Virus record (IMG/VR): IMGVR_UViG_3300021963_004845
Coordinates: 1 to 27,347 of that record
Length of the DNA: 27,347 nt
Direction: 5' to 3' (one strand)
DNA from: a virus
A program made the translations under genes and the position numbers. Under the pieces are notes generated by a model. That model searched no databases. It saw only the letters and a list, made by a program, of their open reading frames with translations, and had not been told where the DNA came from. Positions 7,619-26,239 of this stretch are shown here, piece by piece; positions within the stretch are counted from its first letter, which is position 1, and the number at the start of each line of letters is the position of its first letter.

Positions 7619-8491
7619 TCACTTGCCCCATCCGTTGCCCCAAAGATCCACATGCAATCTTGGGCTGTAGTTGTAGCCACGTGCCAGTGCCCAGTCAGCC
7701 ACATTCACTCGGTTGCGTTCGTATGGAGTAACCACACCACCTTGTGGCATCACATAGGTAACACCACAAAATCCGGCCTCACGATATGCAACCACAGCAC
7801 GATCAACTTCTTCGAAGTGTGCTAAGGTTTCTACCACAAACTTCAAATACACTGTGCCATGCATTTGATAGTCTGCTACAATCTCAGGCTTGATAGCATC
7901 CGACCACGATTCACCTGATGCTGACAGTTTAGGACTTACTGAAAAAGTAATTTCTTGCGTGGGCACGGCGCCTAGTGCAGGGCGTCGCCACTCGTGCAAA
8001 AATGTTCGAAATGCTGGCTGTAACTTTTGAGTGCCATTGGTTTCAAATGTGATGTTCTTCAAATCACCCATACTACCTTGCGACAGCAGTTCTTCATAGC
8101 CACGCTGCCAACCCAGTAGTGGTTCGCCACCTGTGATCACAAGATGCACATCATTGCCGTTGTCTTGTTGCCAGCGATGATTGGGTGTGAGCGCCAACAT
8201 CTTTTCAATCAGTTCATCGTGTGTGAGTGTGTGACTTAGGTCCTTGAATGCAGGATGCCAACTGGCATACGAGTCGCATCCTGTGTTAACAAGAGGAAGC
8301 TCTTCAAAAGTCTTGTAGAGATGGATTGATTTGGCCACTTCATCCGCCTCAGTGCTCTTATGGCCGGGAGAGCATCCAAATCCCGCGCATGTAAAGTTGC
8401 AGCCGAAGGTTCGTAAGAACACAGAAGGAACTCCAACAAATCGTCCTTCGCCCTGAGCAGAGTAAAATAGTTCACTGACTTTTAATTTCAT
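7619..8491 (-). CDS. queE: 7-carboxy-7-deazaguanine synthase (QueE)
   Basis: QueE is a radical SAM enzyme that contracts 6-carboxytetrahydropterin to 7-carboxy-7-deazaguanine. The 290-residue protein begins with the family N-terminus (SELFYSAQGEGRFVGVPSVF) and has GCNFTCAGFGC (30-40), GGEPLL (121-126), FETNGT (149-154), a SVSPKLS strand and a C-terminal RLHVDLWGN. Cluster cysteines are unusual. C31 and C35 keep CX3C, but Phe38 holds the place of the third cysteine; candidates are C40 or C72 (NTGCDSYASW). It is longer than E. coli QueE (223 aa). The start overlaps the methyltransferase stop by ATGA. Confidence 0.9.
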   Translation of the reverse strand: MKLKVSELFYSAQGEGRFVGVPSVFLRTFGCNFTCAGFGCSPGHKSTEADEVAKSIHLYKTFEELPLVNTGCDSYASWHPAFKDLSHTLTHDELIEKMLALTPNHRWQQDNGNDVHLVITGGEPLLGWQRGYEELLSQGSMGDLKNITFETNGTQKLQPAFRTFLHEWRRPALGAVPTQEITFSVSPKLSASGESWSDAIKPEIVADYQMHGTVYLKFVVETLAHFEEVDRAVVAYREAGFCGVTYVMPQGGVVTPYERNRVNVADWALARGYNYSPRLHVDLWGNGWGK

Positions 8492-9264
8492 AGTTTTGTT
8501 GCTTTAACCAGTAGATGCCAACCCAAGTATTCTCTCACAGCCTGTCTATGGGAATCCGACATGACCTCAAACCAAGGCTCTAATTCGTAGCGTCCTTGTT
8601 TGTATGAATCTACATTATACATGAAACAGTGGTCTTGACGCAACCTCTCAATGTGCCACCCATGTTCTAATAATTTGTGTATTTCGTCTTTTGAGTAGGC
8701 CTGTGCGTACGGACAGCCGGCTTGTGCTTCAAACTGATCCAGTCCTTTCTGGATCATAGCATACTTCCAGGAGTTTTTGGCGTATACCATGAAACGAAAT
8801 TCGCCCCCGGGTACCAATACCTCTTTGACATTTTCAATTATGGTGTCAATGCCCGGAAAGTGATGTATCACACCATAACTATACACAAGATCAAACTGAC
8901 CAAGATCAGCAAATGATTTGCTGGCATCTTTGACATGGAATTCGCCTTCAAGATCCAGTACTTTGAATCGATTTTGACTTAGTGCAATGCTCTGCTCACT
9001 TAGGTCAATACCTACATACTCAGCGCCAGCCTTGGCAAATTCTTCAGCGTCTGATCCAATGCCGCAGCCAATTTCCAACACACGCTTGCCAGCCCACAAG
9101 TGAAATCCTGCAAACTCTGCAATATGTGGTTCTACACGATATCTTCGCTCACTTACTTCGCGAAAGAACTCGGGGGTGCCAATATCACTTTGACCATGTT
9201 TGACGTTGCAAGGTTGAGTGTTCCAGTAGCGACGGATTTTATCTTCTATGTTATTTTGGGACAT
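8488..9264 (-). CDS. Class I SAM-dependent methyltransferase
   Basis: The start is taken at the ATG at 9264 (MSQNNIEDKIRRYWN). The 258-residue protein has motif I VLEIGCGIG (62-70), the acidic end of strand 2 in GIDLS (85-89) and VYSYGVIHHF (about 127-136). The YWNTQPCN opening and the LHLL-type end resemble small-molecule methyltransferases of the ubiquinone/tocopherol type rather than DNA base methylases; no DPPY motif is present. It sits directly before queE with an ATGA overlap and follows a glycosyltransferase with a 14-base overlap. It could methylate a 7-deazaguanine precursor, a sugar or another metabolite; context does not decide. Confidence 0.85.
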   Translation of the reverse strand: MSQNNIEDKIRRYWNTQPCNVKHGQSDIGTPEFFREVSERRYRVEPHIAEFAGFHLWAGKRVLEIGCGIGSDAEEFAKAGAEYVGIDLSEQSIALSQNRFKVLDLEGEFHVKDASKSFADLGQFDLVYSYGVIHHFPGIDTIIENVKEVLVPGGEFRFMVYAKNSWKYAMIQKGLDQFEAQAGCPYAQAYSKDEIHKLLEHGWHIERLRQDHCFMYNVDSYKQGRYELEPWFEVMSDSHRQAVREYLGWHLLVKATKL

Positions 9265-10093: not shown

Positions 10094-10711
10094 TTAGGCC
10101 TCTTGCGCAGCTAATTTTTTCTGCAAGTGATTCAACAAGAAACCATACGCAGGCAGAATAACTAACAGACTCACGATAATTTTGCTGATGGAATTGTTGG
10201 TTGCAACAATGTGCCAGTTGGCAGCCATAAACTCGTTTGCGCCGCCAGCAAAAGCAGTGAAGAAGAACACATAGGTATCAAAGAATGTGCTTACAACTGA
10301 ACTCAATGCAGGAGCAATCCACCAGGTGGCATACTTCTCACGAATGTACTGGAACACGTATACGTCAAGCAAATTGCTCACAAAGTATGCAACACCTGAA
10401 CCAAGACCAATGCGGAAGGCCACTGAATCAGGAGCGCCGCCCAGTTTAACCACTGCCATTGACACAATGATTGCTGGAATGAATGCTAAGGCAATCACAG
10501 CACGACCAGTTTGTTTGCCTAGCAGGCGCACAGTCAAGTCGGTCAACACAACCACTAGTGGGAATGTAAATGCGGCTGCCGCCAATGGTGCACCAAACAC
10601 TGAGAATTTGAATTGCACAATGTAGTTGCTGATAGCAATAATAATAATATGTGCCAGCATGAGCTTGTAGGCCAATGCACGGTCAACGCCATTTAAGATT
10701 CGATCTAACAT
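10094..10711 (-). CDS. yhhQ: Queuosine precursor transporter (YhhQ/VUT family)
   Basis: The 205-residue, strongly hydrophobic protein has about six membrane segments. It shows the family marks NYIVQFKFSVFG, FTFPLVVVLTDLTVRLLGK and a late STFFDTYVFFF stretch. In E. coli YhhQ imports the queuosine precursors preQ0 and preQ1; phage copies are known beside 7-deazaguanine modification genes. It would sit in the host inner membrane. AAGGAAAA precedes the start codon. It lies 17 bases after queD and directly before the GT2-like gene. Combined with FolE, QueD and QueE it gives the phage both import and synthesis of deazaguanine precursors. Confidence 0.88.
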   Translation of the reverse strand: MLDRILNGVDRALAYKLMLAHIIIIAISNYIVQFKFSVFGAPLAAAAFTFPLVVVLTDLTVRLLGKQTGRAVIALAFIPAIIVSMAVVKLGGAPDSVAFRIGLGSGVAYFVSNLLDVYVFQYIREKYATWWIAPALSSVVSTFFDTYVFFFTAFAGGANEFMAANWHIVATNNSISKIIVSLLVILPAYGFLLNHLQKKLAAQEA

Positions 10712-10728: not shown

Positions 10729-11235
10729 TTAAACGAATAGATCTTCCATCCACTCGCGATGGCCTTCTCGAAAAGCCATATTGCTCTGTGTTTCGCGCAC
10801 TTCTACACGATAGCACCAGAGACGCTCTGCTTCACCCGGACCCCACAGGTCCGGAATGTAAACACCGTTCACATACTTGTACAGCATGTCTGCCAAGCCT
10901 TCACACCCTAAGCGTGGCAGGATTGTGAGTTTGGCTATTTTCTTCTCTTGCAAGAGCTTGTATGTTTCCAGCTCTGGATCATCTGCAGATACCAGCAAGG
11001 TGTGATCAAATTGATCTTCCAAAGTTTTCTTCAGTTCTTTGAGACCGCCGTAGTCGGCAGCCCAGTTGCGTACATCCAGATTGTCTGTGCCAAAGTAGAA
11101 CTTCATTGAGAATGAGTAACCGTGAATTAGATTGCAGTGGCTGTCGGCACGCCATTGACGGTATGCGCAGGGAAAAGCATCGTGATACTCTTTGGTGCTG
11201 GTGTACTTGTATTGTACAGATTGATGTGTTGCCAT
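10729..11235 (-). CDS. queD: 6-carboxytetrahydropterin synthase (QueD)
   Basis: QueD converts 7,8-dihydroneopterin triphosphate to 6-carboxytetrahydropterin. The 168-residue T-fold protein has RADSHCNLIHGYSF (29-42) with the likely catalytic C34 and zinc ligand H38. It also has DYGGLKELK (61-69), FDHTLLV (76-82), CEGLAD (111-116) and a VEVRETQSNMA strand. The usual HGH zinc motif reads HGY here; H18 and H33 are possible replacements. I believe this is normal for a proteobacterial/phage subfamily. A very strong ribosome site (AGGAGG, 5 bases from the ATG) and an extended -10 promoter lie upstream, so queD likely starts its own unit. Confidence 0.9.
   Translation of the reverse strand: MATHQSVQYKYTSTKEYHDAFPCAYRQWRADSHCNLIHGYSFSMKFYFGTDNLDVRNWAADYGGLKELKKTLEDQFDHTLLVSADDPELETYKLLQEKKIAKLTILPRLGCEGLADMLYKYVNGVYIPDLWGPGEAERLWCYRVEVRETQSNMAFREGHREWMEDLFV
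10836..10854. repeat. Perfect 7-bp inverted repeat inside queD
   Basis: CCGGACC and GGTCCGG are separated by CCACA, giving a stable stem with a 5-base loop in the 3' part of queD. It may be coincidental coding sequence. The stem shares GTCCGG with the intergenic hairpins near 11290 and 26254. Confidence 0.5.
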
Positions 11236-11311: not shown

Positions 11312-12175
11312 CTATTTAACAAGTTTTTCGAGTAGTGATTGTTTTGTGCCTAACAGCGCACAATCCAACGTACCAAACTGCTTGCCTAGCATTTTTCGAA
11401 CATGAATTTTGTTACTAGGCAGCATATCACGCGGATACCCCATTTTTGGTCTGTAACGCACCTTGTAGATATTAGCTTTGTTTTCTTGCATGTTCATTCC
11501 AACATCCCATTCGTTAACAAATGCTGCTAAGATATCTGGATTCCAATAGTGAAATCCCCAAGGATGCTGATTGGGACACATTGTTTCTAAATAGTGATCA
11601 GTTTCCTCTAACACAAATCCTACATAGTCTCCCAGTTGTGGTTCTAGATAAGTCATTTGGTCCTGATCAGGATAATATTCCAATTGGTATCCGGTTACTA
11701 AAAATCTTTGTGTGTCTTGCATGAGTTTTGACAACATTAGAGTTGTAATAAGACCATATGGTAATCTAGGTCGGATGTCAAGAAATGAATGTTTTTCTTC
11801 TAGTGATCCAACAAAGTCTTGTGAATGAATAATCAAAGGTTCAACATTGTGTTGCTTGCACCAGTCAATAGCATATGAACTTTCTTTTATTTGTTCCTGG
11901 TCTTCTACATTATCATAGATCAGAATGACAGGAGTAAACGGTATGTTGTTTCTATAGAATGTATTAGCTACATTCTCACTATCACACCCGCCACTGAGTG
12001 CAACATACAAATCTTTATGCTGACTGTAAATTTCATGTGCCACTTGATCACACGCTTGATCAAACGGTATGATCTTGTTGGCTTTTTGATTGAATGTCAC
12101 ACGCAAATTTTCTTTTTGTTTGCGCTTTGGAAGTCCATCCCAACTGATGTCAATCCAGTTATCTCTGCACAGCAT
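11312..12175 (-). CDS. PP-loop ATPase (asparagine-synthase/ExsB-like fold)
   Basis: The 287-residue protein has the PP-loop ALSGGCDSENVA (59-70), which binds ATP and adenylates a carbonyl or carboxyl oxygen before attack by ammonia or sulfur. The following FTPVILIYDN strand and IDWCKQHNVEP helix resemble the AsnB C-terminal domain and related AANH proteins. True QueC (about 220-230 aa) carries a C-terminal four-cysteine zinc site, which I do not see here. It might still do a QueC-like amidation of 7-carboxy-7-deazaguanine, because it sits just upstream of queD, but it could equally amidate a sugar or thiolate a nucleotide. It overlaps the Rieske gene by 17 bases. Confidence 0.8.
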   Translation of the reverse strand: MLCRDNWIDISWDGLPKRKQKENLRVTFNQKANKIIPFDQACDQVAHEIYSQHKDLYVALSGGCDSENVANTFYRNNIPFTPVILIYDNVEDQEQIKESSYAIDWCKQHNVEPLIIHSQDFVGSLEEKHSFLDIRPRLPYGLITTLMLSKLMQDTQRFLVTGYQLEYYPDQDQMTYLEPQLGDYVGFVLEETDHYLETMCPNQHPWGFHYWNPDILAAFVNEWDVGMNMQENKANIYKVRYRPKMGYPRDMLPSNKIHVRKMLGKQFGTLDCALLGTKQSLLEKLVK

Positions 12176-14358: not shown

Positions 14359-14765
14359 ACGCAAATTTCCTCTTTGAGATATCGTTTGAGTTCTTTGTCA
14401 TTGGGTTCTACAGCGTAGTTCTTCTTGAAGAAAATTTCATAACTATCACTGCCGTATTTGCCAATGCCGTACAAATCGGTAGCATCATCACCATTCCAGG
14501 TCATGTAGTCTTGACTCATTTTTTTCAATCTAGTGTACCTTACATTGGCCATACCCAATGGTGCGATAATGCTTTTTACAAAATCTTCATCGGCCGCAAT
14601 CAATACTTCCGGTGTTGGGAACCAGTATAAAAATTCTGGCAAGGTTGTTTTTACAGGTTTGCGGCCTGTTTGATTCAGCATGATCACCCCAACCATGTGT
14701 TCCCATGAGTTAGAGATTTGTTGTTGAACCATCAGATCATCTCGTAATGCATTAAAAAATATCAT
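14355..14765 (-). CDS. MBD4-like helix-hairpin-helix DNA glycosylase, compact
   Basis: The 136-residue protein matches the HhH-GPD fold in its MBD4/EndoIII-like form: MLNQTGRKPVKTTLPEFL near 29-46, PLGMANVRYTRLKKMSQDY (69-87), a hairpin LYGIGKYGSDSYEIF (98-112) and VEPNDKELKRYL (119-130). D123 sits at the catalytic aspartate. The hairpin lacks the EndoIII lysine and the iron-sulfur cysteines are absent, so a monofunctional glycosylase is expected. MBD4 removes T or U opposite G. It ends sooner than bacterial relatives (about 200 aa). It is translationally coupled to folE (ATGA). Confidence 0.75.
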   Translation of the reverse strand: MIFFNALRDDLMVQQQISNSWEHMVGVIMLNQTGRKPVKTTLPEFLYWFPTPEVLIAADEDFVKSIIAPLGMANVRYTRLKKMSQDYMTWNGDDATDLYGIGKYGSDSYEIFFKKNYAVEPNDKELKRYLKEEICV

Positions 14766-15454
14766 CGTGGTGCAAAGTCCTGTTGCAGTTTGATATTGTC
14801 AAAGAACTCTTTCTTCACACTTTGGTCTGTTTTAAAAGCCCCGTGTAAAACCGTTGTTTGGGTGAGACTAGAGTGAGCCATGATACCGCGATTCTCACAA
14901 CAACCATGGGTAGCTTGTATATAAACTGCGACATCCTTGGACCCGGTCGCAAATTCAATTTCGCGAGCAATATCCATACATAGTTCTTCTTGGAGAGTCC
15001 CACGTCTTGCACACCACTGCGCGATCCTAGTATACTTGGATAGACCAATGAGCACGGGACCAGCAATGATTCCAATATAAGCCACACCCGTAACAGGTTG
15101 GTGATGATGCGAGCACATGCTCTTAAGCTCTGAACGCACCACCAACATACCCTCGTATGCTCCGTCCGTATCGTTCGGGAAAGCCGTAGCATTAGGGCTC
15201 TCCTCATACCTGCCAGCCATAATTTCATTGAAGTACATTTTGGCAAGACGTTGTGCGGTACCTTTTGAGTTTGGATCATTTTCTCTGTCGATTAGTAATA
15301 CATCTAGCACTTGTTCAAATGCCACAGTTGCTTCGTTGATTAAACCAAGTTTGGTAACTTCGTCAACATATTCACTGATGTTGTCGCCGGCCCAGAATCT
15401 TTTGCCTTCTGCCTTCATCTGTTCGCGAAGGACTTGTGATAGATTTTTTTCCAA
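14762..15454 (-). CDS. folE: GTP cyclohydrolase I (FolE)
   Basis: FolE converts GTP to 7,8-dihydroneopterin triphosphate, the entry to folate and 7-deazaguanine synthesis. The 230-residue protein has the zinc ligands C114 and H117 in SMCSHHHQP and C185 in ATHGCCENRG. It also has the substrate block GLSKYTRIAQWCARR (137-151) followed by LQEEL, and the GTAQRLAKMY helix. Length is normal (E. coli 222 aa). A late-type promoter candidate lies about 50 bases upstream. With QueD and QueE on the same strand it completes the path from GTP to 7-carboxy-7-deazaguanine. Confidence 0.95.
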   Translation of the reverse strand: MEKNLSQVLREQMKAEGKRFWAGDNISEYVDEVTKLGLINEATVAFEQVLDVLLIDRENDPNSKGTAQRLAKMYFNEIMAGRYEESPNATAFPNDTDGAYEGMLVVRSELKSMCSHHHQPVTGVAYIGIIAGPVLIGLSKYTRIAQWCARRGTLQEELCMDIAREIEFATGSKDVAVYIQATHGCCENRGIMAHSSLTQTTVLHGAFKTDQSVKKEFFDNIKLQQDFAPR

Positions 15455-19597: not shown

Positions 19598-20127
19598 TTG
19601 ATTACTTCGTCCTTTGTGTATTGATCCCAGGCAGTGAATGTTTTCCTATCCAGCAAGTCATGCAGGCTATGACACCATACTCCAGGATTGGTTGCTCGGA
19701 AATCTTTGTCGTCCAGTTTGATAGTAGCGTTATAACCTAGCAGTTTAATGTAAGGCAGTTTCACAGATATCATGGGAATGAATTGTGATTGGTCACACAG
19801 GCCGCCTTCGCACAACCCTTCTACAGCAGCGGAATCAAGATCTAGTGTACACCAGTAGCCCCGATCCAACCAGTGTTGAATCATGCGTTCCCATGCACTC
19901 CAAGTTTCGGCATCATTCATAGTAGGGTTCGGAAAACTTTGATTGGCACCAAAATAAATGTGTGTGATCGGCATCTTTGACTTTGCATCAATCTCTCCAC
20001 GCTTCCAATCTATTGCTTCGTTAGTTTGCAAGCCTACCACAAACAATGTGCGGCGGTTGACAGCAGGGCTGGCTTCAACTTCTGTGCCTACAAAGAAATT
20101 GGTATCTTCGTGTCCGGGTCTATTCAT
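19594..20127 (-). CDS. Conserved DpdA-linked hypothetical protein (177 aa)
   Basis: The 177-residue protein has strands and helices reminiscent of an alpha/beta enzyme: FFVGTEVEASPAVNRRTLFVV, ITHIYFGANQSFP, WLDRGYWCTLDLDSAAVEGL, CEGGLCDQSQFIPMISVKLPY, ATIKLDDKDF and NPGVWCHSLHDLL. Cys residues at about 93, 105 and 110 (CTLD, CEGGLC) could bind metal. I have seen similar proteins in T4-like phages but know no function. Its start overlaps the dpdA stop by ATGA and its stop overlaps the T-fold candidate, making a three-gene coupled unit. Confidence 0.75.
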   Translation of the reverse strand: MNRPGHEDTNFFVGTEVEASPAVNRRTLFVVGLQTNEAIDWKRGEIDAKSKMPITHIYFGANQSFPNPTMNDAETWSAWERMIQHWLDRGYWCTLDLDSAAVEGLCEGGLCDQSQFIPMISVKLPYIKLLGYNATIKLDDKDFRATNPGVWCHSLHDLLDRKTFTAWDQYTKDEVIK

Positions 20128-21710
20128 TTGATTTGCTCACTTTCAAGCAGTTGTAATGCTTCTGATTTTAACTGGTCTTCTGGGTCGTTGTCAACATCAG
20201 GTTCTTCAAAAGAGAACAGTGCGTTGAATTGTGTGCGAGCATTTTTGGTTTTCTTACCTTTGAAACCTCGTGTGCCCACAATCTCCATCCAATAACTATC
20301 ATATGTTTCAATAATAGCGTCAGCAGTTTCTCGATCTGGTGCGGCAAAGATTGCTTCCACAATGTCTTCAAATCGAGCATAATCGCCTGTGCTACGGCGC
20401 ATCATGGCAGGATGTTCACCTGCGTCAAATCGTCGATTGGCTTCTTGCACAGCAGTTAGATGCATCCAAACATTGTGACCCATGAGCAGTGCATATGAGA
20501 ATGAATCCCATGATGTCTTGCCTTCTTTGCCAATCTTATTTAGGTCGCCGGGCTTGTAAATGCAAATATCTTTCATCTTAAACAAGTCGCTTAGTGGACT
20601 GTCTTCCCAGCGTGGGTAGATGCCATCTGCTACTACACCAGTTGACCACTTGCGTGTGTCTAGGCTGTATTTTTTATCGTCAGCACTAGGACCCATACGA
20701 TACGACCACTTTGAGTCATGCTCAAATACATTTTCGTAATACACTTGGCCGTTGGCTGTGGCAAGGAATGGACTGGCACAATCAAAAGAGATAGTAAAAG
20801 CCGGATTAACGTATTTTCTAACTGCTCTTTGAATCACGGTCAGTAGCACAGCCCATTCCAACTTTGATGTGCCCAAGAAGTGCATCCAATCATGCACACC
20901 CTCTTGCAACAAATTGTCATAGCGCAAGGCTACCAGTCGTCTTAGCACCAAGTGAACGTCGCACATGTTCTGACCGCCCATTGACCAACCATCAAAGTGT
21001 GTGTCTGGATACTTTGTGGGATCACAGTATTCTTTCATGGTTTCGTACCATTGGTCTGCACTGCTGTGGTTGTCACCCTGCAATACATTTAGAATCCTAG
21101 TACCACTATTACGAATGCCCTTACGATGCTTCATAAAGTATTCGTTGTTGAACTTGGTAGCATCTACTGCTTCTTGCAGTGTGGAGATTTGACAGGCCTT
21201 GCTGGCTTTCTTGTCATGAATGACCCAGGTTGGAATATCAAGTGTCATGCAGTAATCAGAAACGTTATCTAGCCAGTTTAGAACAAGCTCTCGTTTCTTT
21301 TGAGCCTTAGCACAACCTGAGTTGGCTTTCCAATCGCCTTCCCACAAGCCTTTAGCAATCTGGAAACCGCCCGAATCTCCCAGTATAAACGTTCCCGGCT
21401 CACGGTTCCGGACCATGTCCTCTGACCAGTCTTGTTTGGAGAGATCGAGATTAGCATGTCCTCCAGACGCAAGTGACCAACGATAAGGGAATAAAGCCTT
21501 AGTGGAGTTGAGCCAATTAAGCTGTTCCATATCCGTAAGACCCTGCGGAAATCGTGCGGGATCCACATACGGTTCATTCCTTTGCTTGCCCACAAATGTG
21601 GCATAGAACCCGCTGATGGCCGGAAGGAATACAGCATAGTCCAATTGCTTGGCTGTTAAGTTATCTTGAGTCAATTCGACCCCACTTGATTTTGAGCCAG
21701 ATTCGTTCAT
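20124..21710 (-). CDS. dpdA: DpdA-like guanine transglycosylase (7-deazaguanine into DNA)
   Basis: The 528-residue protein (ATG at 21710) is a tRNA-guanine-transglycosylase relative. It has FLPAISGFYA near the start, GDSGGFQ (111-117), TLDIP (156-160), VLQGD (209-213), GWSMGG (241-246), HFLGTSK (277-283) and SFDCASPF (308-315). D310 matches the TGT nucleophile and D112 the base-recognition aspartate. The C-terminal four-ligand zinc site of tRNA enzymes is absent, as in DpdA, which swaps guanine in DNA for a 7-deazaguanine. The C-terminal tail contains LFSFE (498-502), the same peptide that ends the DNA polymerase. An earlier in-frame start would overlap the DUF2061 gene further. Confidence 0.85.
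   Translation of the reverse strand: MNESGSKSSGVELTQDNLTAKQLDYAVFLPAISGFYATFVGKQRNEPYVDPARFPQGLTDMEQLNWLNSTKALFPYRWSLASGGHANLDLSKQDWSEDMVRNREPGTFILGDSGGFQIAKGLWEGDWKANSGCAKAQKKRELVLNWLDNVSDYCMTLDIPTWVIHDKKASKACQISTLQEAVDATKFNNEYFMKHRKGIRNSGTRILNVLQGDNHSSADQWYETMKEYCDPTKYPDTHFDGWSMGGQNMCDVHLVLRRLVALRYDNLLQEGVHDWMHFLGTSKLEWAVLLTVIQRAVRKYVNPAFTISFDCASPFLATANGQVYYENVFEHDSKWSYRMGPSADDKKYSLDTRKWSTGVVADGIYPRWEDSPLSDLFKMKDICIYKPGDLNKIGKEGKTSWDSFSYALLMGHNVWMHLTAVQEANRRFDAGEHPAMMRRSTGDYARFEDIVEAIFAAPDRETADAIIETYDSYWMEIVGTRGFKGKKTKNARTQFNALFSFEEPDVDNDPEDQLKSEALQLLESEQIK
20205..20219 (-). other. LFSFE peptide in the DpdA tail (putative clamp-binding)
   Basis: These codons encode LFSFE in the context TQFNALFSFEEPD, in a low-complexity acidic tail after the catalytic domain. 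The DNA polymerase ends FTSLFSFE. In T4-like phages the polymerase C-terminal peptide binds the gp45 clamp; the function here is inferred. Confidence 0.5.
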
Positions 21711-21870
21711 GTATGTAATAATCAATACTAAGCAAGACATGCAATGCTGTGGCAAATCCAGTTGCATTGCCAATATCACTAGTGAACATGTAAGTCCATA
21801 GTATGGTAAACAGCCAGGCAGTAATCCTGTATGTTACCATTCTAGTGATTGTTCTTTTTTGTGTTTCCAT
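21661..21870 (-). CDS. DUF2061-like small membrane protein
   Basis: The ATG at 21870 overlaps the clamp stop (TGATG); a GTG one codon earlier is the alternative. The 69-residue protein has a basic N-terminus (QKRTITRMVTYRITAWLFTI), two short hydrophobic segments, and ends YYIHERIWLKIKWGR. The pattern of a K/R-rich start, TYRITA/SWR-type motif and YYxHERxW end is that of DUF2061, a small membrane family in proteobacteria without known function. Its 3' end overlaps the dpdA start by 50 bases. Confidence 0.8.
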   Translation of the reverse strand: METQKRTITRMVTYRITAWLFTILWTYMFTSDIGNATGFATALHVLLSIDYYIHERIWLKIKWGRIDSR

Positions 21871-22592
21871 CACTTGCTTTGTGCAGGCAGAATGTAGTTG
21901 TAAACAGCAATGCCTGAATCCACTGTGATCTTGGCAGCACCGTCATCACTAATGCGAATGGTTTTGTCACCTGTGAGTGCCAGAATGCTCATGACTTGCT
22001 GAGCAGGCCAAGACCAAGCACGTTTCAACTGCCCATTAACACCTGGATGGAACACAAAGTTACCAGCGTGTGTTGAGTGATCACCGAAGAAAAACTTCAA
22101 GTCGCCGTTTTCAGTCTTGGCCTGGAAGTGTGGTTCCTCGGCATTGGCCTGTGCTTGCATGCGCAGGCGCTGAATAGCAGCCACAGTGGGCTCAAATTCA
22201 ATGTGCCAGTTTACACCTTTGAACTTGGGGGTCTTGAGCTTTTCAGTCACAATAGCTTCAGCCATAAAACGATAGTTGTTTTTAAAGTCGCCAGTGGCAT
22301 TTTCAAAGTTGATGCCATCTGGCTCACCGCCGGCTCTGCGACTCAAGCTGAGCTTGGCATTTTCTTTGTACTCTTGCAGGTTTAGCAAGATTTTGATTTT
22401 GCTCAAGTTGGGCATGCCAAATGTGCCCACAAAGTCTGGATGTGGGTTTTTAAATTCACCCTCCACTACCACACTCATGTCTTCGGCTAAACCTACAATT
22501 TGTGTGGATTTGTCATCACCCACAATCTTGATCAAGTCAATGCAGCCAAGATCATGTGTGTGTTGTACTAAGTCTAATAGATAATCTCTCAT
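21870..22592 (-). CDS. Sliding clamp (T4 gp45-like)
   Basis: The 240-residue protein resembles T4 gp45 (228 aa), the trimeric processivity clamp of the DNA polymerase and a cofactor for late transcription. It starts MRDYLLDLVQHTHDLGCIDL and contains EDMSVVVEGEFKNPHPDFVG, FGMPNLSKIKILLNLQEYK, a basic mid-segment and a late FFFGDHSTHAGNFVFHPG. An AGGAG ribosome site and a late-type promoter candidate lie upstream. It is two genes from the polymerase; in T4 gp45 and gp43 also lie close together. Confidence 0.9.
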   Translation of the reverse strand: MRDYLLDLVQHTHDLGCIDLIKIVGDDKSTQIVGLAEDMSVVVEGEFKNPHPDFVGTFGMPNLSKIKILLNLQEYKENAKLSLSRRAGGEPDGINFENATGDFKNNYRFMAEAIVTEKLKTPKFKGVNWHIEFEPTVAAIQRLRMQAQANAEEPHFQAKTENGDLKFFFGDHSTHAGNFVFHPGVNGQLKRAWSWPAQQVMSILALTGDKTIRISDDGAAKITVDSGIAVYNYILPAQSK

Positions 22593-22624
22593 GGTATACT
22601 CCTAATGTTTAAGTTTAACAGATG

Positions 22625-22632
22625 TATTTAGA
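22625..22632 (-). promoter_or_regulatory. Late-type promoter candidate for the clamp (TCTAAATA)
   Basis: TCTAAATAC on the minus strand lies 33 bases upstream of the clamp ATG, in a 51-base gap. It is the same 9-mer as upstream of folE. The leader contains AGGAG near the ATG. Confidence 0.45.
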
Positions 22633-22643
22633 ATTTGCAATTG

Positions 22644-23582
22644 TTATTGACGATTTATTTTCGCCAAAACTTGCCCCCCGCGCAGACTTTGAATTTCTCC
22701 AGGTTTGCGCATTTCAAACCAAGCAATGTCACCTGTTCCGGTGTACTGCTCAATAATTTTATAGCCAAGACTTCTGGCTATTGTTTGTATGCGACTGCCT
22801 GGAGTGTAGCACATCCAAGCATTTTCTACAGCACCAACGCCATGCCAACTATCGCATTCATTATAGGTAAAAACCAATGCACCACCAGGGCGTAGTTTTT
22901 GATATATCTCTATCAAAAACTTTTCAATCATCTCAATGGGTTTCCAGTTAAAATAATTGTAGGCAAATACCAGGCCAAATTGATTGACAGGCAGTGCAGT
23001 AAAAATTTCTGTGTCTTTCCAGTCGTTAATTACGTATGGTCTCAATCTGTTTTGATATTCTTTGGTAAACGGAGCCATAGCAACATCAATCAATTCGCGA
23101 TTGTGATCCACAAGATATAAAGGATCCATTGGCACCATGTCTTCCACTAGCATTTCTTGTCGAGCGCCAATGAACATTCCGGGCAGCCGCCAATCGGTAT
23201 AATTTTTTATTGTGTTGCGTAGACTTTCACGATCATTAAACTCAATAGGTAGTTTTCGATTAATCAAGTGCTCCACAGTTTCAAAACACATTTCTTGTTC
23301 GTATCGCTTCCAACTTTCTGCATAGTATTCGGGCTCTAGACGATTAACGTCGTTTCTTAACTGTTGCTTTAGAGTTTGAAGTGATTGATCAAATTTTGAA
23401 ATAGAATGTCTAACATCTAGCAAGCGCTCATCTAATTCTGCGGTCGTTGAATGATACTGTACGTCACGACTTTTAACAGCATGTAATATATCGTCCAACT
23501 TGTCAGTAATATTACCATAGGCAGGATCCATGTCGGGACGTTCCAACCAATTTAAGTATGCAACAATTTGGCTCAGCTTCAT
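22644..23582 (-). CDS. Methyltransferase-like protein with helical N-terminus
   Basis: The 312-residue protein has a mostly helical N-terminal half (residues 1-100, with heptad-like TAELDERLLDVRHSISKFDQ). An SAM-methyltransferase-like C-terminal domain contains FGLVFAYNYFNWKPIEMIEK, FLIEIYQKLRPGGALVFTYN and a CYTPGSRIQTIARSLGYKI. The RPGGALVFT strand is the usual post-motif III. The glycine-rich motif I is weak, with LVDHNRELIDVAM perhaps at the acidic strand, so SAM binding is uncertain. Similar proteins lie near the polymerase in T4-like cyanophages, function unknown. ATGA overlap with the polymerase stop. Confidence 0.75.
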   Translation of the reverse strand: MKLSQIVAYLNWLERPDMDPAYGNITDKLDDILHAVKSRDVQYHSTTAELDERLLDVRHSISKFDQSLQTLKQQLRNDVNRLEPEYYAESWKRYEQEMCFETVEHLINRKLPIEFNDRESLRNTIKNYTDWRLPGMFIGARQEMLVEDMVPMDPLYLVDHNRELIDVAMAPFTKEYQNRLRPYVINDWKDTEIFTALPVNQFGLVFAYNYFNWKPIEMIEKFLIEIYQKLRPGGALVFTYNECDSWHGVGAVENAWMCYTPGSRIQTIARSLGYKIIEQYTGTGDIAWFEMRKPGEIQSLRGGQVLAKINRQ

Positions 23583-26239
23583 TCGAAAGAAAATAGTGAT
23601 GTAAAAGTGTTTTCTGTGTTAGTAGCTGACGCAAGGTCCCATTCCAACACACCCAGCAAGTTGTCAACTTTTTGATCCACAACAGTTGCTTCCATTAGTC
23701 CATCGTCAAACGGCAGTTCAGTAAACCATGCAGGCAATCTTTGTTCATCTGTAGGATAGCCAATTGACGTCCAGCCAAGTGCATTTGACTTGAGTTTGCA
23801 CACAATGGTTTTCATACCATCAACAATCTGCATTGAGTAGTTGTCCGAATTCATTCGGCGCATTTGATTCCAGTTCATTGCGGCACGAACGTGTCCTGGC
23901 ATGTTTGCTTTGCCTAGGCGTGCTTCTTCTGCCGCATACTTGGTCAAGTTGTTCACACGCTTGGGTGACCCTTTCTCCCAGCCTGGCCGCTCTTTAAATT
24001 CATACTTGAATTCTCTAATGCGTTCAATAATTTCATCTCGTTGTGTACCTGCCAGTACTTTATTTAGAATTTCTAACAAGAAGTCTTGAATTACTTTGGG
24101 CGTGTCACTGCGTTTCAAATCCAGGCCCATGGCCTTGGTTTTGCCAATCTTGCCGTCCACGTCCAGTCGCTTGCCTTCCAAGTCAATGATGTTCACAGCA
24201 TAACGCTTCTTGGTGATAAACAAACTACGGTCAGCAACTAGTTCACGACCTGCTTTAATTAACGAGCCCATGTCTCTAGGACAATGAAATGCCTGTTCCA
24301 TAAATGCTGGAAAGCTCTCGTTCACTTGTTCAGCAACAGAATCATACAGTTGGATACAGATTTCTTTTGACCATTCCATGCGCCCTTCTGCAACTTCTTT
24401 TTCCAGTATGGGCCATGCAGAGAAATAGCATGAGTCTGTGTCACCATAGATAATGGCCTTGCCAGTGTGATCATATTCGCCTGCAATGCACTCGTTAATG
24501 TAGGCGTCCATGTGCTTGGCAATTGATCTGCCTGCCAGAGTGGTTGACTGACCAATACGCTTGTCAAAGAAACGGCAGCCTGGATTTAAAATAGCACCAT
24601 ACAAGCTATTCAAGTTAATCTTCTTGACCAGCTGGCGCTTGTCCCAGAACGCAATTTCTTTGGGATCCTTGGTTTCTTTCTTCTTGGCCTGTAGCTCTTG
24701 TCGTTCACGATACCAGCGTTCCAGCAGGCCAGGGATGATACCTTTCTTTTCGTAAGTGAGAATGGTACCATTGGCAGTAAGGATCCAGGGCTGGTTGCTA
24801 TCAAAAATCATGTGCCAGATTTCCATAGCCGAGTGGACCGACTCTTCGCCACCTTCCCAGTCAATGGTAATTTCTGTACCACGCTGTTGTTCCATTACGG
24901 CTGTGTATTCTAGGCTGGCAAACAACCCTTCCCATGCAGCCGCAAATGAATCACCCTTGGCCATTTTGTCTTTGATCAGTCGATCAGTCATGGTCTGCCG
25001 CAGTTGGCCTACCACAGTTTCTGGACCCATGTTCATGGCACGAATAGCAGATGGATATAGTGAATTAATGTCCACTGATCCGATCCACATGTGCAAGCCC
25101 TTTTTGGGATATGCCACATAAGCACCGGCAGCCTGTGTGTCATCATCTGTAAGACGTTGCTTGCGATTGGGCACAACCATGCCACGCTCATGCGCTTCGT
25201 TGATAATGGCCTGTTCAGTCACTGCCACAGCACCCATTGTGGTTTGTAGCAACACAGTATTGGCATGCGCCAGTTCATTGGCTAGATCCAAGAAACGCAG
25301 TTTCTTGTCCAACTTGGCAATGATCATGGTGTCTTGGCGGTTGTACTCAATAAACTTCTTGAAGTGTTGATTGTACAACTGATCCAGTGTGCCTTCAAAC
25401 TGTGTTTTGCGTTCACCCAGTTCATACTCGCCAATGGCATCCAAACTATAGCTATGGCGTTCTTCGTATGTGTACTTGCGATATAACTGCATATAGTCCA
25501 TATGCACACGACCAATCAAGTCATAGGTCTGATTCTCTGCACCAAAACGCTCAAACATTCTTTGCTTGGGAAACTGTCCCCACAAACAAAAACGTCGTGT
25601 GTCATCCTTGCTGAGTATGCGTGTGGTACGGTTTACTGTGTAAGGAATGTCGTAGCCTTCTGAGTTCCAGCCAGTGAGCACATCTGCACCTTCAATCACA
25701 TCCAAGAACATTTTGATCATGTCTTCTTCACGCTCAAACAAGATGGTGTTTTCAAACTCAGCCACCAGTTCTTGTGCTGTGTCCCAACTCAAGTGTTTGG
25801 GTGGCACAGTCAGTGTGATCATTTGATCCAGCCAATCCAAGTACACAGATATAGCAGTGATGGGATTGAACGGATCTGCCACAGGCGAGAATCCACGCTC
25901 TTGGTCAAACGCAACTTCAATGTCAAAAAATGCTGTGTGCAGTTCCGGAGCATCTTGGTCTTTGTAGTTCTCTTCTAAACATCTAAAGATGGGGTTGATG
26001 TCCGATTCATACAACTGCTTGCCGGACTGGCTGCGAACTTCCTTGCGAAATTCTTTGTTGTTGCGTGATGAAAATCTATTGACCGGCGTGCCGTAGATGC
26101 TTTGAAACTTGCCTCTAGGATCGTCGTAATAGAAAATGTAGTTGGCTGGATATTCTTTGTAGACTCGTTCGCCGTCTCGGCGTTCTACAACATGGATGCG
26201 ATCGTGTTCACGATCAAATAGTGCGTCGATATAACTCAT
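23579..26239 (-). CDS. Family B replicative DNA polymerase (gp43-like)
   Basis: The 886-residue protein (T4 gp43 is 898) has all B-family motifs: exonuclease I FFDIEV (104-109), II LTGWNSEGYDIPY (188-200) and III YNRQD (299-303, D303), motif A SVDINSLYPS (388-397), motif B KKINLNSLYGA (539-549), motif C YGDTDS (598-603) and TKKRYAVN (676-683). Proofreading and polymerase sites are therefore complete. The final residues FTSLFSFE occupy the place of the T4 clamp-binding tail. A stem-loop, GGAG and a TATAAATA promoter lie upstream, consistent with T4-like control at its leader. Confidence 0.97.
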   Translation of the reverse strand: MSYIDALFDREHDRIHVVERRDGERVYKEYPANYIFYYDDPRGKFQSIYGTPVNRFSSRNNKEFRKEVRSQSGKQLYESDINPIFRCLEENYKDQDAPELHTAFFDIEVAFDQERGFSPVADPFNPITAISVYLDWLDQMITLTVPPKHLSWDTAQELVAEFENTILFEREEDMIKMFLDVIEGADVLTGWNSEGYDIPYTVNRTTRILSKDDTRRFCLWGQFPKQRMFERFGAENQTYDLIGRVHMDYMQLYRKYTYEERHSYSLDAIGEYELGERKTQFEGTLDQLYNQHFKKFIEYNRQDTMIIAKLDKKLRFLDLANELAHANTVLLQTTMGAVAVTEQAIINEAHERGMVVPNRKQRLTDDDTQAAGAYVAYPKKGLHMWIGSVDINSLYPSAIRAMNMGPETVVGQLRQTMTDRLIKDKMAKGDSFAAAWEGLFASLEYTAVMEQQRGTEITIDWEGGEESVHSAMEIWHMIFDSNQPWILTANGTILTYEKKGIIPGLLERWYRERQELQAKKKETKDPKEIAFWDKRQLVKKINLNSLYGAILNPGCRFFDKRIGQSTTLAGRSIAKHMDAYINECIAGEYDHTGKAIIYGDTDSCYFSAWPILEKEVAEGRMEWSKEICIQLYDSVAEQVNESFPAFMEQAFHCPRDMGSLIKAGRELVADRSLFITKKRYAVNIIDLEGKRLDVDGKIGKTKAMGLDLKRSDTPKVIQDFLLEILNKVLAGTQRDEIIERIREFKYEFKERPGWEKGSPKRVNNLTKYAAEEARLGKANMPGHVRAAMNWNQMRRMNSDNYSMQIVDGMKTIVCKLKSNALGWTSIGYPTDEQRLPAWFTELPFDDGLMEATVVDQKVDNLLGVLEWDLASATNTENTFTSLFSFE

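Follow-up and report, generated by a model that had tools for sequence, protein, structure and literature searches.

The IMG/VR virus record IMGVR_UViG_3300021963_004845, analysed here over its positions 1 to 27,347 (27,347 nucleotides; the window), raises the question of how and when DpdA, a DNA guanine transglycosylase related to tRNA enzymes, is directed to phage DNA. The window encodes a DpdA-like protein and a family B DNA polymerase (Pol) that share a short peptide, and the gene of a sliding clamp lies between them, together with two further open reading frames (ORFs). Our analysis suggests, with a probability of about 0.72, that a C-terminal tail of DpdA docks on the clamp, that guanine is exchanged on new phage DNA, and that the same device is used in several DpdA lineages. 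Positions of the features are collected in Table 1.

As seen from the translations of both ORFs, Pol terminates in TENTFTSLFSFE, and the DpdA-like ORF (20124-21779, minus strand) contains NARTQFNALFSFEEPDVDND. Within the native DpdA peptide FNALFSFEEPDV, the motif is identical to its Pol counterpart in 6 of 8 residues (FTSLFSFE in Pol vs. FNALFSFE in DpdA), and fully so in LFSFE. The LFSFE codons lie on the minus strand at 20205-20219 in DpdA (CTG TTC TCT TTT GAA) and at 23582-23596 in Pol (CTA TTT TCT TTC GAA). An earlier account made from the letters alone (the sequence-only reading) had reported the shared peptide, these positions, the differing codons and the clamp gene between the two genes; all of it proved exact. 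The DpdA motif is not terminal, being followed by 26 residues of which many are acidic. Of the minus-strand ORFs in the window, 41 were accepted as genes, and among them 6/8 identity to the Pol tail is unique to DpdA, the next best being 4/8. Shuffling of the last 60 residues of DpdA gave a match of at least 6/8 once in 20,000 trials, and with the shuffled window proteome a 6/8 match appeared anywhere in 13 of 2,000 trials. It is unlikely that the likeness arose by chance. A recent duplication of the peptide was rejected in view of the differing codons, the unrelated genes and the moving of the peptide between lineages.

The AlphaFold2 (AF2) model of the window DpdA is modest, with a mean predicted local distance difference test (pLDDT) score of 64 and a predicted template-modelling (pTM) score of 0.72. 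Structural alignment of the model by VIA-align listed 50 matches, all of them tRNA-guanine transglycosylases (TGTs; Z up to 13.4, the best over residues 44-479), and nearly all of these alignments cover residues 43-479. Foldseek of the model alone was weak, with a TGT as top match (E 0.022), and no Pfam, PHROG or NCBIfam match was found for the protein. The motifs DSGGFQ and SFDCASP, which we take to be TGT active-site signatures, carry catalytic-type Asp residues that are both invariant in 47 aligned DpdA sequences. The model predicts a TIM-barrel TGT fold, as found in the TGT/DpdA superfamily, and from this fold and the preQ0 genes of the window we infer that the protein inserts a 7-deazaguanine base into DNA. 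pLDDT is below 50 throughout residues 502-551, with the motif (518-525) inside, and in 143 of the 551 residues overall, including 1-43 and some core stretches; a low-confidence helix is modelled at 514-521. The motif-bearing tail is probably disordered, and the Pol-like hydrophobic-acidic peptide would thus sit in a flexible segment, as judged from low pLDDT alone. The motif as an element of the TGT core was rejected, the tail lying outside the fold.

The clamp was modelled with pLDDT 72 and pTM 0.71. All 50 Foldseek matches listed for this model were PCNA or PCNA complexes, one of them a 9-1-1 clamp, and the gene is syntenic with one annotated as PCNA in Pseudomonas phage PAC2. The model is indicative of a PCNA fold, i.e., of a clamp of the PCNA/gp45 type. 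No Pfam match was found for the clamp, and neither the clamp nor the DpdA profiles matched any PDB sequence.

Close relatives of the window DpdA were collected in two IMG/VR scans (the best 80 of 599 and the best 80 of 597 matches; 157 loci). Because these loci share many contigs, each distinct tail was counted once: among closed DpdA ORFs aligned to query residue 500 or beyond, 136 complete ORFs gave 81 distinct tails. L080, the tail of which reads FNALFSFDEPE, was left out of the count for want of the anchor. The motif, in the form [FY]..[LH][FY], is kept in place in 78 of the 81 tails (69 [FY]..LF, 6 [FY]..HF and 3 [FY]..LY). In the remaining three (L062, L063 and L077) it is gone from this place, and the proteins end in NLFGE, ELFGE and DLFG, with LF at the C-terminus. 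At the key motif positions the 78 aligned tails have F in 77 and Y in 1, L in 72 and H in 6, F in 75 and Y in 3, and then mostly F (38), Y (22) or L (7), while the residues after the motif are variable. The motif is therefore neither absent nor randomly placed in close DpdA homologues; the sequence-only reading had named absence or random placement as refuting its proposal, and this check did not refute it. The 154 loci with a complete Pol end gave 35 distinct ends, without exception of the form TF[TDQS].LF.[FW]. A second recurring pattern, LD..ALDQLE, was seen downstream of the LF motif in many relatives' DpdA tails (e.g., L015 and L026).

Among phages with PCNA/gp45-type clamps, more distant homologues of the window DpdA (27-36% identity) are found in Pseudomonas phage PAC2/PA5oct, Vibrio phage 2.275.O and Sinorhizobium phage Phosso, all annotated as hypothetical proteins. 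PAC2 and Vibrio 2.275.O have the gene order Pol-clamp-DpdA as in the window, whereas the position and the letters of the tail differ; in Phosso, unlike in the window, dpdA is distant from Pol and clamp and lies beside primase and DnaB genes. Vibrio 2.275.O Pol ends in NNTDLFDW and its DpdA in NNNDLFGW, and these two are the only ones of 484 ORFs with [LIMV][FY].[FWY] within two residues of the end. The same end, Pol included, was counted in 1/442 ORFs of genome G002, 7/424 of PAC2, 2/419 of genome G001 and 6/532 of Phosso. PAC2 Pol ends in HFDSLFGW and the PAC2 DpdA tail contains NSFNSLFDVDA; Phosso Pol ends in TFNDLFTF and its DpdA just in VEGLF, an ambiguous case. IMG/VR searches with the Vibrio 2.275.O and PAC2 DpdAs as queries found nothing. 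The T4-like Synechococcus cyanophage BUCT-ZZ01, with a Pol ending in STLDDFFS, has a DpdA2 that ends in ASLDSFFD and shares 33% identity with its counterpart in Vibrio phage nt-1. The pattern [STN]L[DEAQ].F[FY] occurs in 3 of 236 BUCT-ZZ01 ORFs, namely Pol, DpdA2 and a glycosyltransferase-like protein, vs. none of 2,301 in five other phages, and a looser form in 6/236 vs. 11/2,301. In nt-1 the strict pattern picks exactly Pol, the late sigma factor gp55 and an ArcS-like protein (3/393).

Several further proteins of these phages were recorded. The BUCT-ZZ01 glycosyltransferase-like gene adjoins DpdA2 (L269:14772-16115), its product ends in GSLEDFFND, and it is a candidate clamp-tethered DNA glycosyltransferase. 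The ArcS-like protein of nt-1 (ORF388, L354:41416-42096), encoded in the preQ0 cluster, ends in SLANFF (cf. TLESFFG in nt-1 Pol and NLQKFYN in gp55); its assignment comes from NF040592 at E 2e-7, below the model cut-off. Cys-x-x-Cys proteins of BUCT-ZZ01 (7844-8554) and nt-1 (106921-107769) end in GLETFFA and GIEDFFV; these ends either match the looser motif by chance or reflect another shared function. Two Phosso proteins, at 153391-153894 (L245:16891-17394) and 223052-223924 (L249:8552-9424), end in LNDLFDFG and LSDLFDFG and are the top two matches to their own Pol tail among 531 ORFs (last 14 residues); neither had a Pfam match above the cut-off. In PAC2 (L159, 1-1831) the C-terminal part of Pol is annotated as a separate gene directly after a Hef-like homing endonuclease, which suggests that PAC2 Pol carries an intein or an insertion.

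Since the regular expressions for the tail counts were written after the tails had been seen, less bias attaches to a ranking of ORFs by likeness to the Pol tail of the phage itself. With this tail as query, the last 60 residues of all ORFs were ranked; the ORF sets of the ranked and scanned genomes came from a crude caller (at least 60 amino acids; Phosso to base 390,500 of 469,473). DpdA ranked 1/441 in G002, 1/418 in G001, 1/483 in Vibrio 2.275.O, 3/235 in BUCT-ZZ01 and 13/423 in PAC2. When the last 14 residues were used, a high DpdA rank was obtained, of seven phages, only in Vibrio 2.275.O (1/483) and BUCT-ZZ01 (3/235), and the nt-1 ArcS-like protein ranked 6/392. Fisher combination over the six phages without G002 gave 2.8e-5, a rough figure and not a formal test, ORFs not being exchangeable. 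In T4, taken as a positive control, the Pol tail (ASLDFLFG) recovered gp55 and gp33 at ranks 1 and 2 of 255 (last 14 residues).

The pattern also reaches past the window phage and its relatives, and beyond the sequence-only reading, to phages with beta-type clamps. In hhalign the window-type profile A4 showed no relation to the 9g-type profile A1 (probability 1.1; each profile was built from few sequences that are much alike), though a remote kinship may exist, and A1, built from nine 9g-family sequences, gave only beta-lactamase matches (E at least 0.26). In 9g, MiCath, Seurat, BA3, EC151, BcepGomr, RHEph06, Vibrio 1.207.B, PSASB_03 and Yong-L2-223, no more than a few genes separate dpdA from a clamp gene, which a polymerase gene follows (in Vibrio 1.207.B both of the latter, annotated as hypothetical, were identified by likeness). 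A profile of eight clamps from 9g-family loci matched beta clamps in 9 of 9 matches (best E 3.4e-5). The DpdAs of these phages end, in the above order, in LQDLFDE, VQELF, VMELF, IQGLF, IQELF, QQGLFV, EQRLF, QPGLF, QMELF and DPVLF, and in the last 25 columns of the A1 alignment L and F alone are invariant. Two distant DpdAs end likewise in QRRLF (Dp-1, with DnaN nearby) and QVSLF (R5C, with no clamp annotated in the stretch examined).

A scan for the 9g family (the best 80 of 199 matches) gave 80 loci, of which 70 were left after one open ORF and nine duplicates had been dropped, with 68 distinct ends (last 40 residues). In 67 of the 70 loci the flank contains a clamp gene, and in 63 of the 70 [LIM]F lies within two residues of the DpdA end. 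Counted on distinct ends, [LIM]F is found in 61/68 DpdAs vs. 5/628 other ORFs of the same loci, and Q.{1,3}[LI]F in 55/68 vs. 0/628. Many of these ends resemble the published beta-clamp binding consensus Q-phi-x-[LM]-[FL] (PMC11139829; here and below, statements from PMC-numbered papers refer to the available portions of their text). The strict consensus is present in 19/70 DpdAs vs. 0/2,930 ORFs of seven other phages, the others having phi-Q-x-LF or variants, and relaxed forms are present in 51/70 vs. 7/2,930; as the sequences are related, the 9g-family counts are not independent events.

Taken as a mechanism, DpdA would be a TGT-fold base-exchange enzyme whose flexible C-terminal tail places a clamp-binding motif (F518..L521 F522.F524 E525) beside the core. 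The motif would dock in the pocket of the phage PCNA-like clamp that is used by the Pol C-terminus, and docked DpdA would be held on clamp-loaded duplex, that is, on freshly replicated phage DNA. There it would replace guanine by a base of the preQ0 type, whose synthesis would draw on the FolE, QueD and QueE genes of the window. Several phage DpdA lineages would use this device, the motif suiting the kind of clamp: Pol-tail-like peptides with PCNA/gp45-type clamps and (Q)xxLF with beta-type clamps. Binding of the DpdA tail to the clamp is the step that we regard as quite probable. DNA marking by DpdA may, as the sequences suggest, be tied to DNA copying; that the exchange occurs mainly at or just behind the fork we place a little below even odds.

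A number of observations weigh against this interpretation. No such end was found in five actinophage DpdA genes (Typha, Tinciduntsolum, two of Megan, and Mufasa8) or in the DpdAs of Cellulophaga phage phi3ST:2 and nt-1. Tinciduntsolum, with its motif-less DpdA, belongs to the Rosebush virus species, and Rosebush is heavily modified, with 96,530 dPreQ0 per million nucleotides, and in E. coli 9g DpdA and Gat-QueC together modify plasmid DNA (PMC6884629). The phage clamp is therefore not required for activity, and the tether, if real, aids the chemistry but does not condition it. In the ranking, DpdA comes only 262/531 in Phosso (63/531 on the last 14 residues) and 251/392 in nt-1; the controls are less sharp for T4 on the last 60 residues (gp55 second, gp33 tied third) and blunter for nt-1, with gp55 at 10/392 (last 14) or 17 (last 60). 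Parts of the DpdA core of the modest model also have low pLDDT, so that low tail pLDDT is no proof of disorder, and the stretch preceding the motif (NARTQ) is also conserved in the close family, which weakens the argument for a pure linker there. The sequence-only reading had suggested checking whether the DpdA tail tracks the Pol tail. In several distant phages DpdA carries a peptide like its own Pol tail; within the close family tracking by residue did not reach significance, the variable motif residue agreeing with that of Pol in 21 of 75 distinct pairs (p 0.075 by permutation). For T4, gp45 binding by the alpha-glucosyltransferase (alpha-GT) is not the main determinant of the alpha:beta glucosylation ratio (PMC13216743), and the likeness of the gp43, gp55 and gp33 ends is not kept across all T4-family phages (review PMC2988020). 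The proposal that DpdA carries its own clamp-binding peptide is thus partly supported, namely by the conservation, the low-confidence tail, the PCNA-fold neighbor and the distant parallels, and is limited by phage DpdAs that lack the motif.

The alternative that survives best, and which we still consider unlikely, is that DpdA binds the clamp with no coupling to the fork, the clamp labeling phage DNA or, in the role of a general tether, increasing local concentration, with modification at any time before packaging. Our observations do not discriminate between it and the favored mechanism. T4 gp45 also acts in late transcription, via gp33 and gp55 (PMC2988020, PMC7892883), and both the binding of alpha-GT to gp45 without setting the modification ratio and the activity of 9g DpdA on plasmids agree with such a role; the location of dpdA near clamp and polymerase genes in several lineages fits a replisome role instead, without proving it. 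We give a low probability to a motif that serves DpdA itself, as a dimer contact, a DNA-binding tail or a docking element on the TGT core, its likeness to Pol being a common hydrophobic-acidic pattern. TGT enzymes form dimers (PMC6884629), the conserved stretch GFKGKK..NARTQ of the close family runs straight into the motif, and AF2 places its low-confidence helix at 514-521. Yet the tail is of low confidence and outside the aligned TGT core, the motif is found at the extreme C-terminus in L062, L063, L077 and Vibrio 2.275.O, it varies with the phage's own Pol (LF.F, LF.W, L..FF) or with the clamp type (QxxLF), and the same ranking recovers the known clamp clients of T4. A different partner common to Pol and DpdA, such as a single-stranded DNA-binding protein, the clamp loader or RNA polymerase, is quite improbable as the target of the shared peptide: sequence alone does not name the partner, but the gp43, gp55 and gp33 tails of T4 bind gp45 and are interchangeable (PMC2988020), and many 9g-family ends fit or nearly fit the beta-clamp consensus beside beta-type clamps. 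Chance resemblance of two short peptides can be dismissed as extremely improbable, since, short as the motif is, and with some unrelated ORFs scoring too and the Fisher value no formal test, shuffled tails reach the match only 1/20,000 times and the motif stays in place in 78/81 tails and recurs in several lineages.

Table 1. Features of the window relevant to the proposed docking of DpdA on the clamp.
Feature	Position	Strand	Basis or remark
DpdA-like DNA guanine transglycosylase	20124..21710	minus	TGT fold (model); probable start ATG 21710, ORF open from GTG 21779
Proposed clamp-binding motif FNALFSFE	20205..20228	minus	DpdA residues 518-525; within 502-551, pLDDT <50
C-terminal tail past the motif, 26 residues, D/E-rich	20127..20204	minus	Translation; relatives' tails
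TGT-type active-site motif DSGGFQ, residues 135-140	21360..21377	minus	Same in all 47 aligned DpdAs
Second TGT-type motif SFDCASP, residues 331-337	20769..20789	minus	D333 invariant in 47 aligned DpdAs
Sliding clamp, predicted PCNA-like fold, proposed docking partner	21870..22592	minus	Foldseek best E 1.5e-8; synteny with PAC2
Methyltransferase-like gene, between clamp and Pol	22644-23582		PF08241 E 0.00035
Pol C-terminal peptide FTSLFSFE	23582..23605	minus	Translation; relatives' Pol ends
Family B DNA polymerase	23579..26239	minus	PF00136 E 9.5e-35; phrog_262
FolE (GTP cyclohydrolase I), preQ0 supply	14762..15454	minus	PF01227
QueD-like, preQ0 supply	10729..11235	minus	PF01242
QueE-like radical SAM enzyme, preQ0 supply	7619..8491	minus	phrog_2076 E 2.8e-51; TIGR03365 E 3.3e-11, below cut-off
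Queuosine precursor (preQ0/preQ1) transporter	10094..10711	minus	PF02592; TIGR00697 above cut-off
Possible PP-loop ATPase, perhaps in the place of QueC	11312..12175	minus	Weak TIGR02432 match, E 0.005

The start of the window DpdA is likely M24, because the alignment with relatives starts near residue 36-41; between the clamp gene and dpdA, a 70-residue ORF (21661-21873) shares positions with the open start of the DpdA ORF. The possible PP-loop ATPase had no Pfam or PHROG match, and a PADLOC run gave nothing useful. The QueD-like protein ends in EWMEDLFV, and among 14 listed tails, out of 16 relative tails, 11 have an EDLF[VAE] end; it could be a further clamp-type end or merely part of the QueD fold. 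Around other DpdAs, the ParB-like protein encoded directly after DpdA in phi3ST:2 (L394:4103-4567) ends in SVNLF, with a gene annotated as DNA polymerase III beta in the stretch. ParB-like genes also occur beside or near DpdA in actinophages, and Microbacterium phage Megan (L391:670-2543) has two adjacent genes annotated as queuine tRNA-ribosyltransferase.

If the clamp-binding tail is real, it gives a concrete answer to how and when this relative of tRNA enzymes targets phage DNA. Since loading gives the clamp a single orientation, such a tether could favor one (nascent) strand, so that phage DNA would be marked during its synthesis while host DNA and tRNA are spared. More tentatively, and at somewhat less than even odds, clamp tethering may be how phage 7-deazaguanine DNA modification is targeted in general, a scheme in which unrelated-looking DpdA families each acquired a clamp-suited peptide or else a partner enzyme carries it; the ArcS-like protein of nt-1 and the ParB-like protein of phi3ST:2 can be considered as candidate carriers. 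The presence of the own-Pol tail or of the clamp consensus at a C-terminus would then offer a sequence test for other replisome-coupled modification enzymes, e.g., the BUCT-ZZ01 glycosyltransferase, and the T4 alpha-GT/gp45 case would become a wider rule.

The sequence-only reading knew of no description of a clamp-tethered DpdA, and we found none in the literature searched, with most subscription-journal papers and preprints outside its reach. The available portions of PMC10002423, PMC10893344, PMC7472734, PMC6884629 and PMC13216743 do not propose it, and the word 'clamp' is absent from the available main text of the DpdA paper PMC6884629. With 9g DpdA and nt-1 DpdA2 as described there, the window protein has in common the gene context of FolE, QueD and QueE and the relationship to TGTs, while the 9g family shows no sequence relation to it by profile comparison. 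T4 gp33 and gp55 carry, like the window DpdA, a C-terminal hydrophobic-acidic peptide on a linker that resembles the Pol tail (PMC2988020, PMC7892883); they are transcription proteins, however, and the motif of the window DpdA is followed by 26 residues.

The closest functional parallel would be T4 alpha-GT, a precedent by analogy for a clamp-bound DNA modification enzyme, and one that Sommer in 2004 reportedly found bound to the gp45 clamp. Binding of the enzyme to gp45 by pull-down has been repeated (PMC13216743). As is proposed for the window DpdA, a phage enzyme that modifies DNA bases binds there to the phage's own sliding clamp, the binding itself being a finding for T4. The two differ in chemistry and in means: alpha-GT has, by eye, no Pol-like C-terminal peptide, whereas the window DpdA is predicted to be a TGT-type exchanger and carries a Pol-like motif in its tail.

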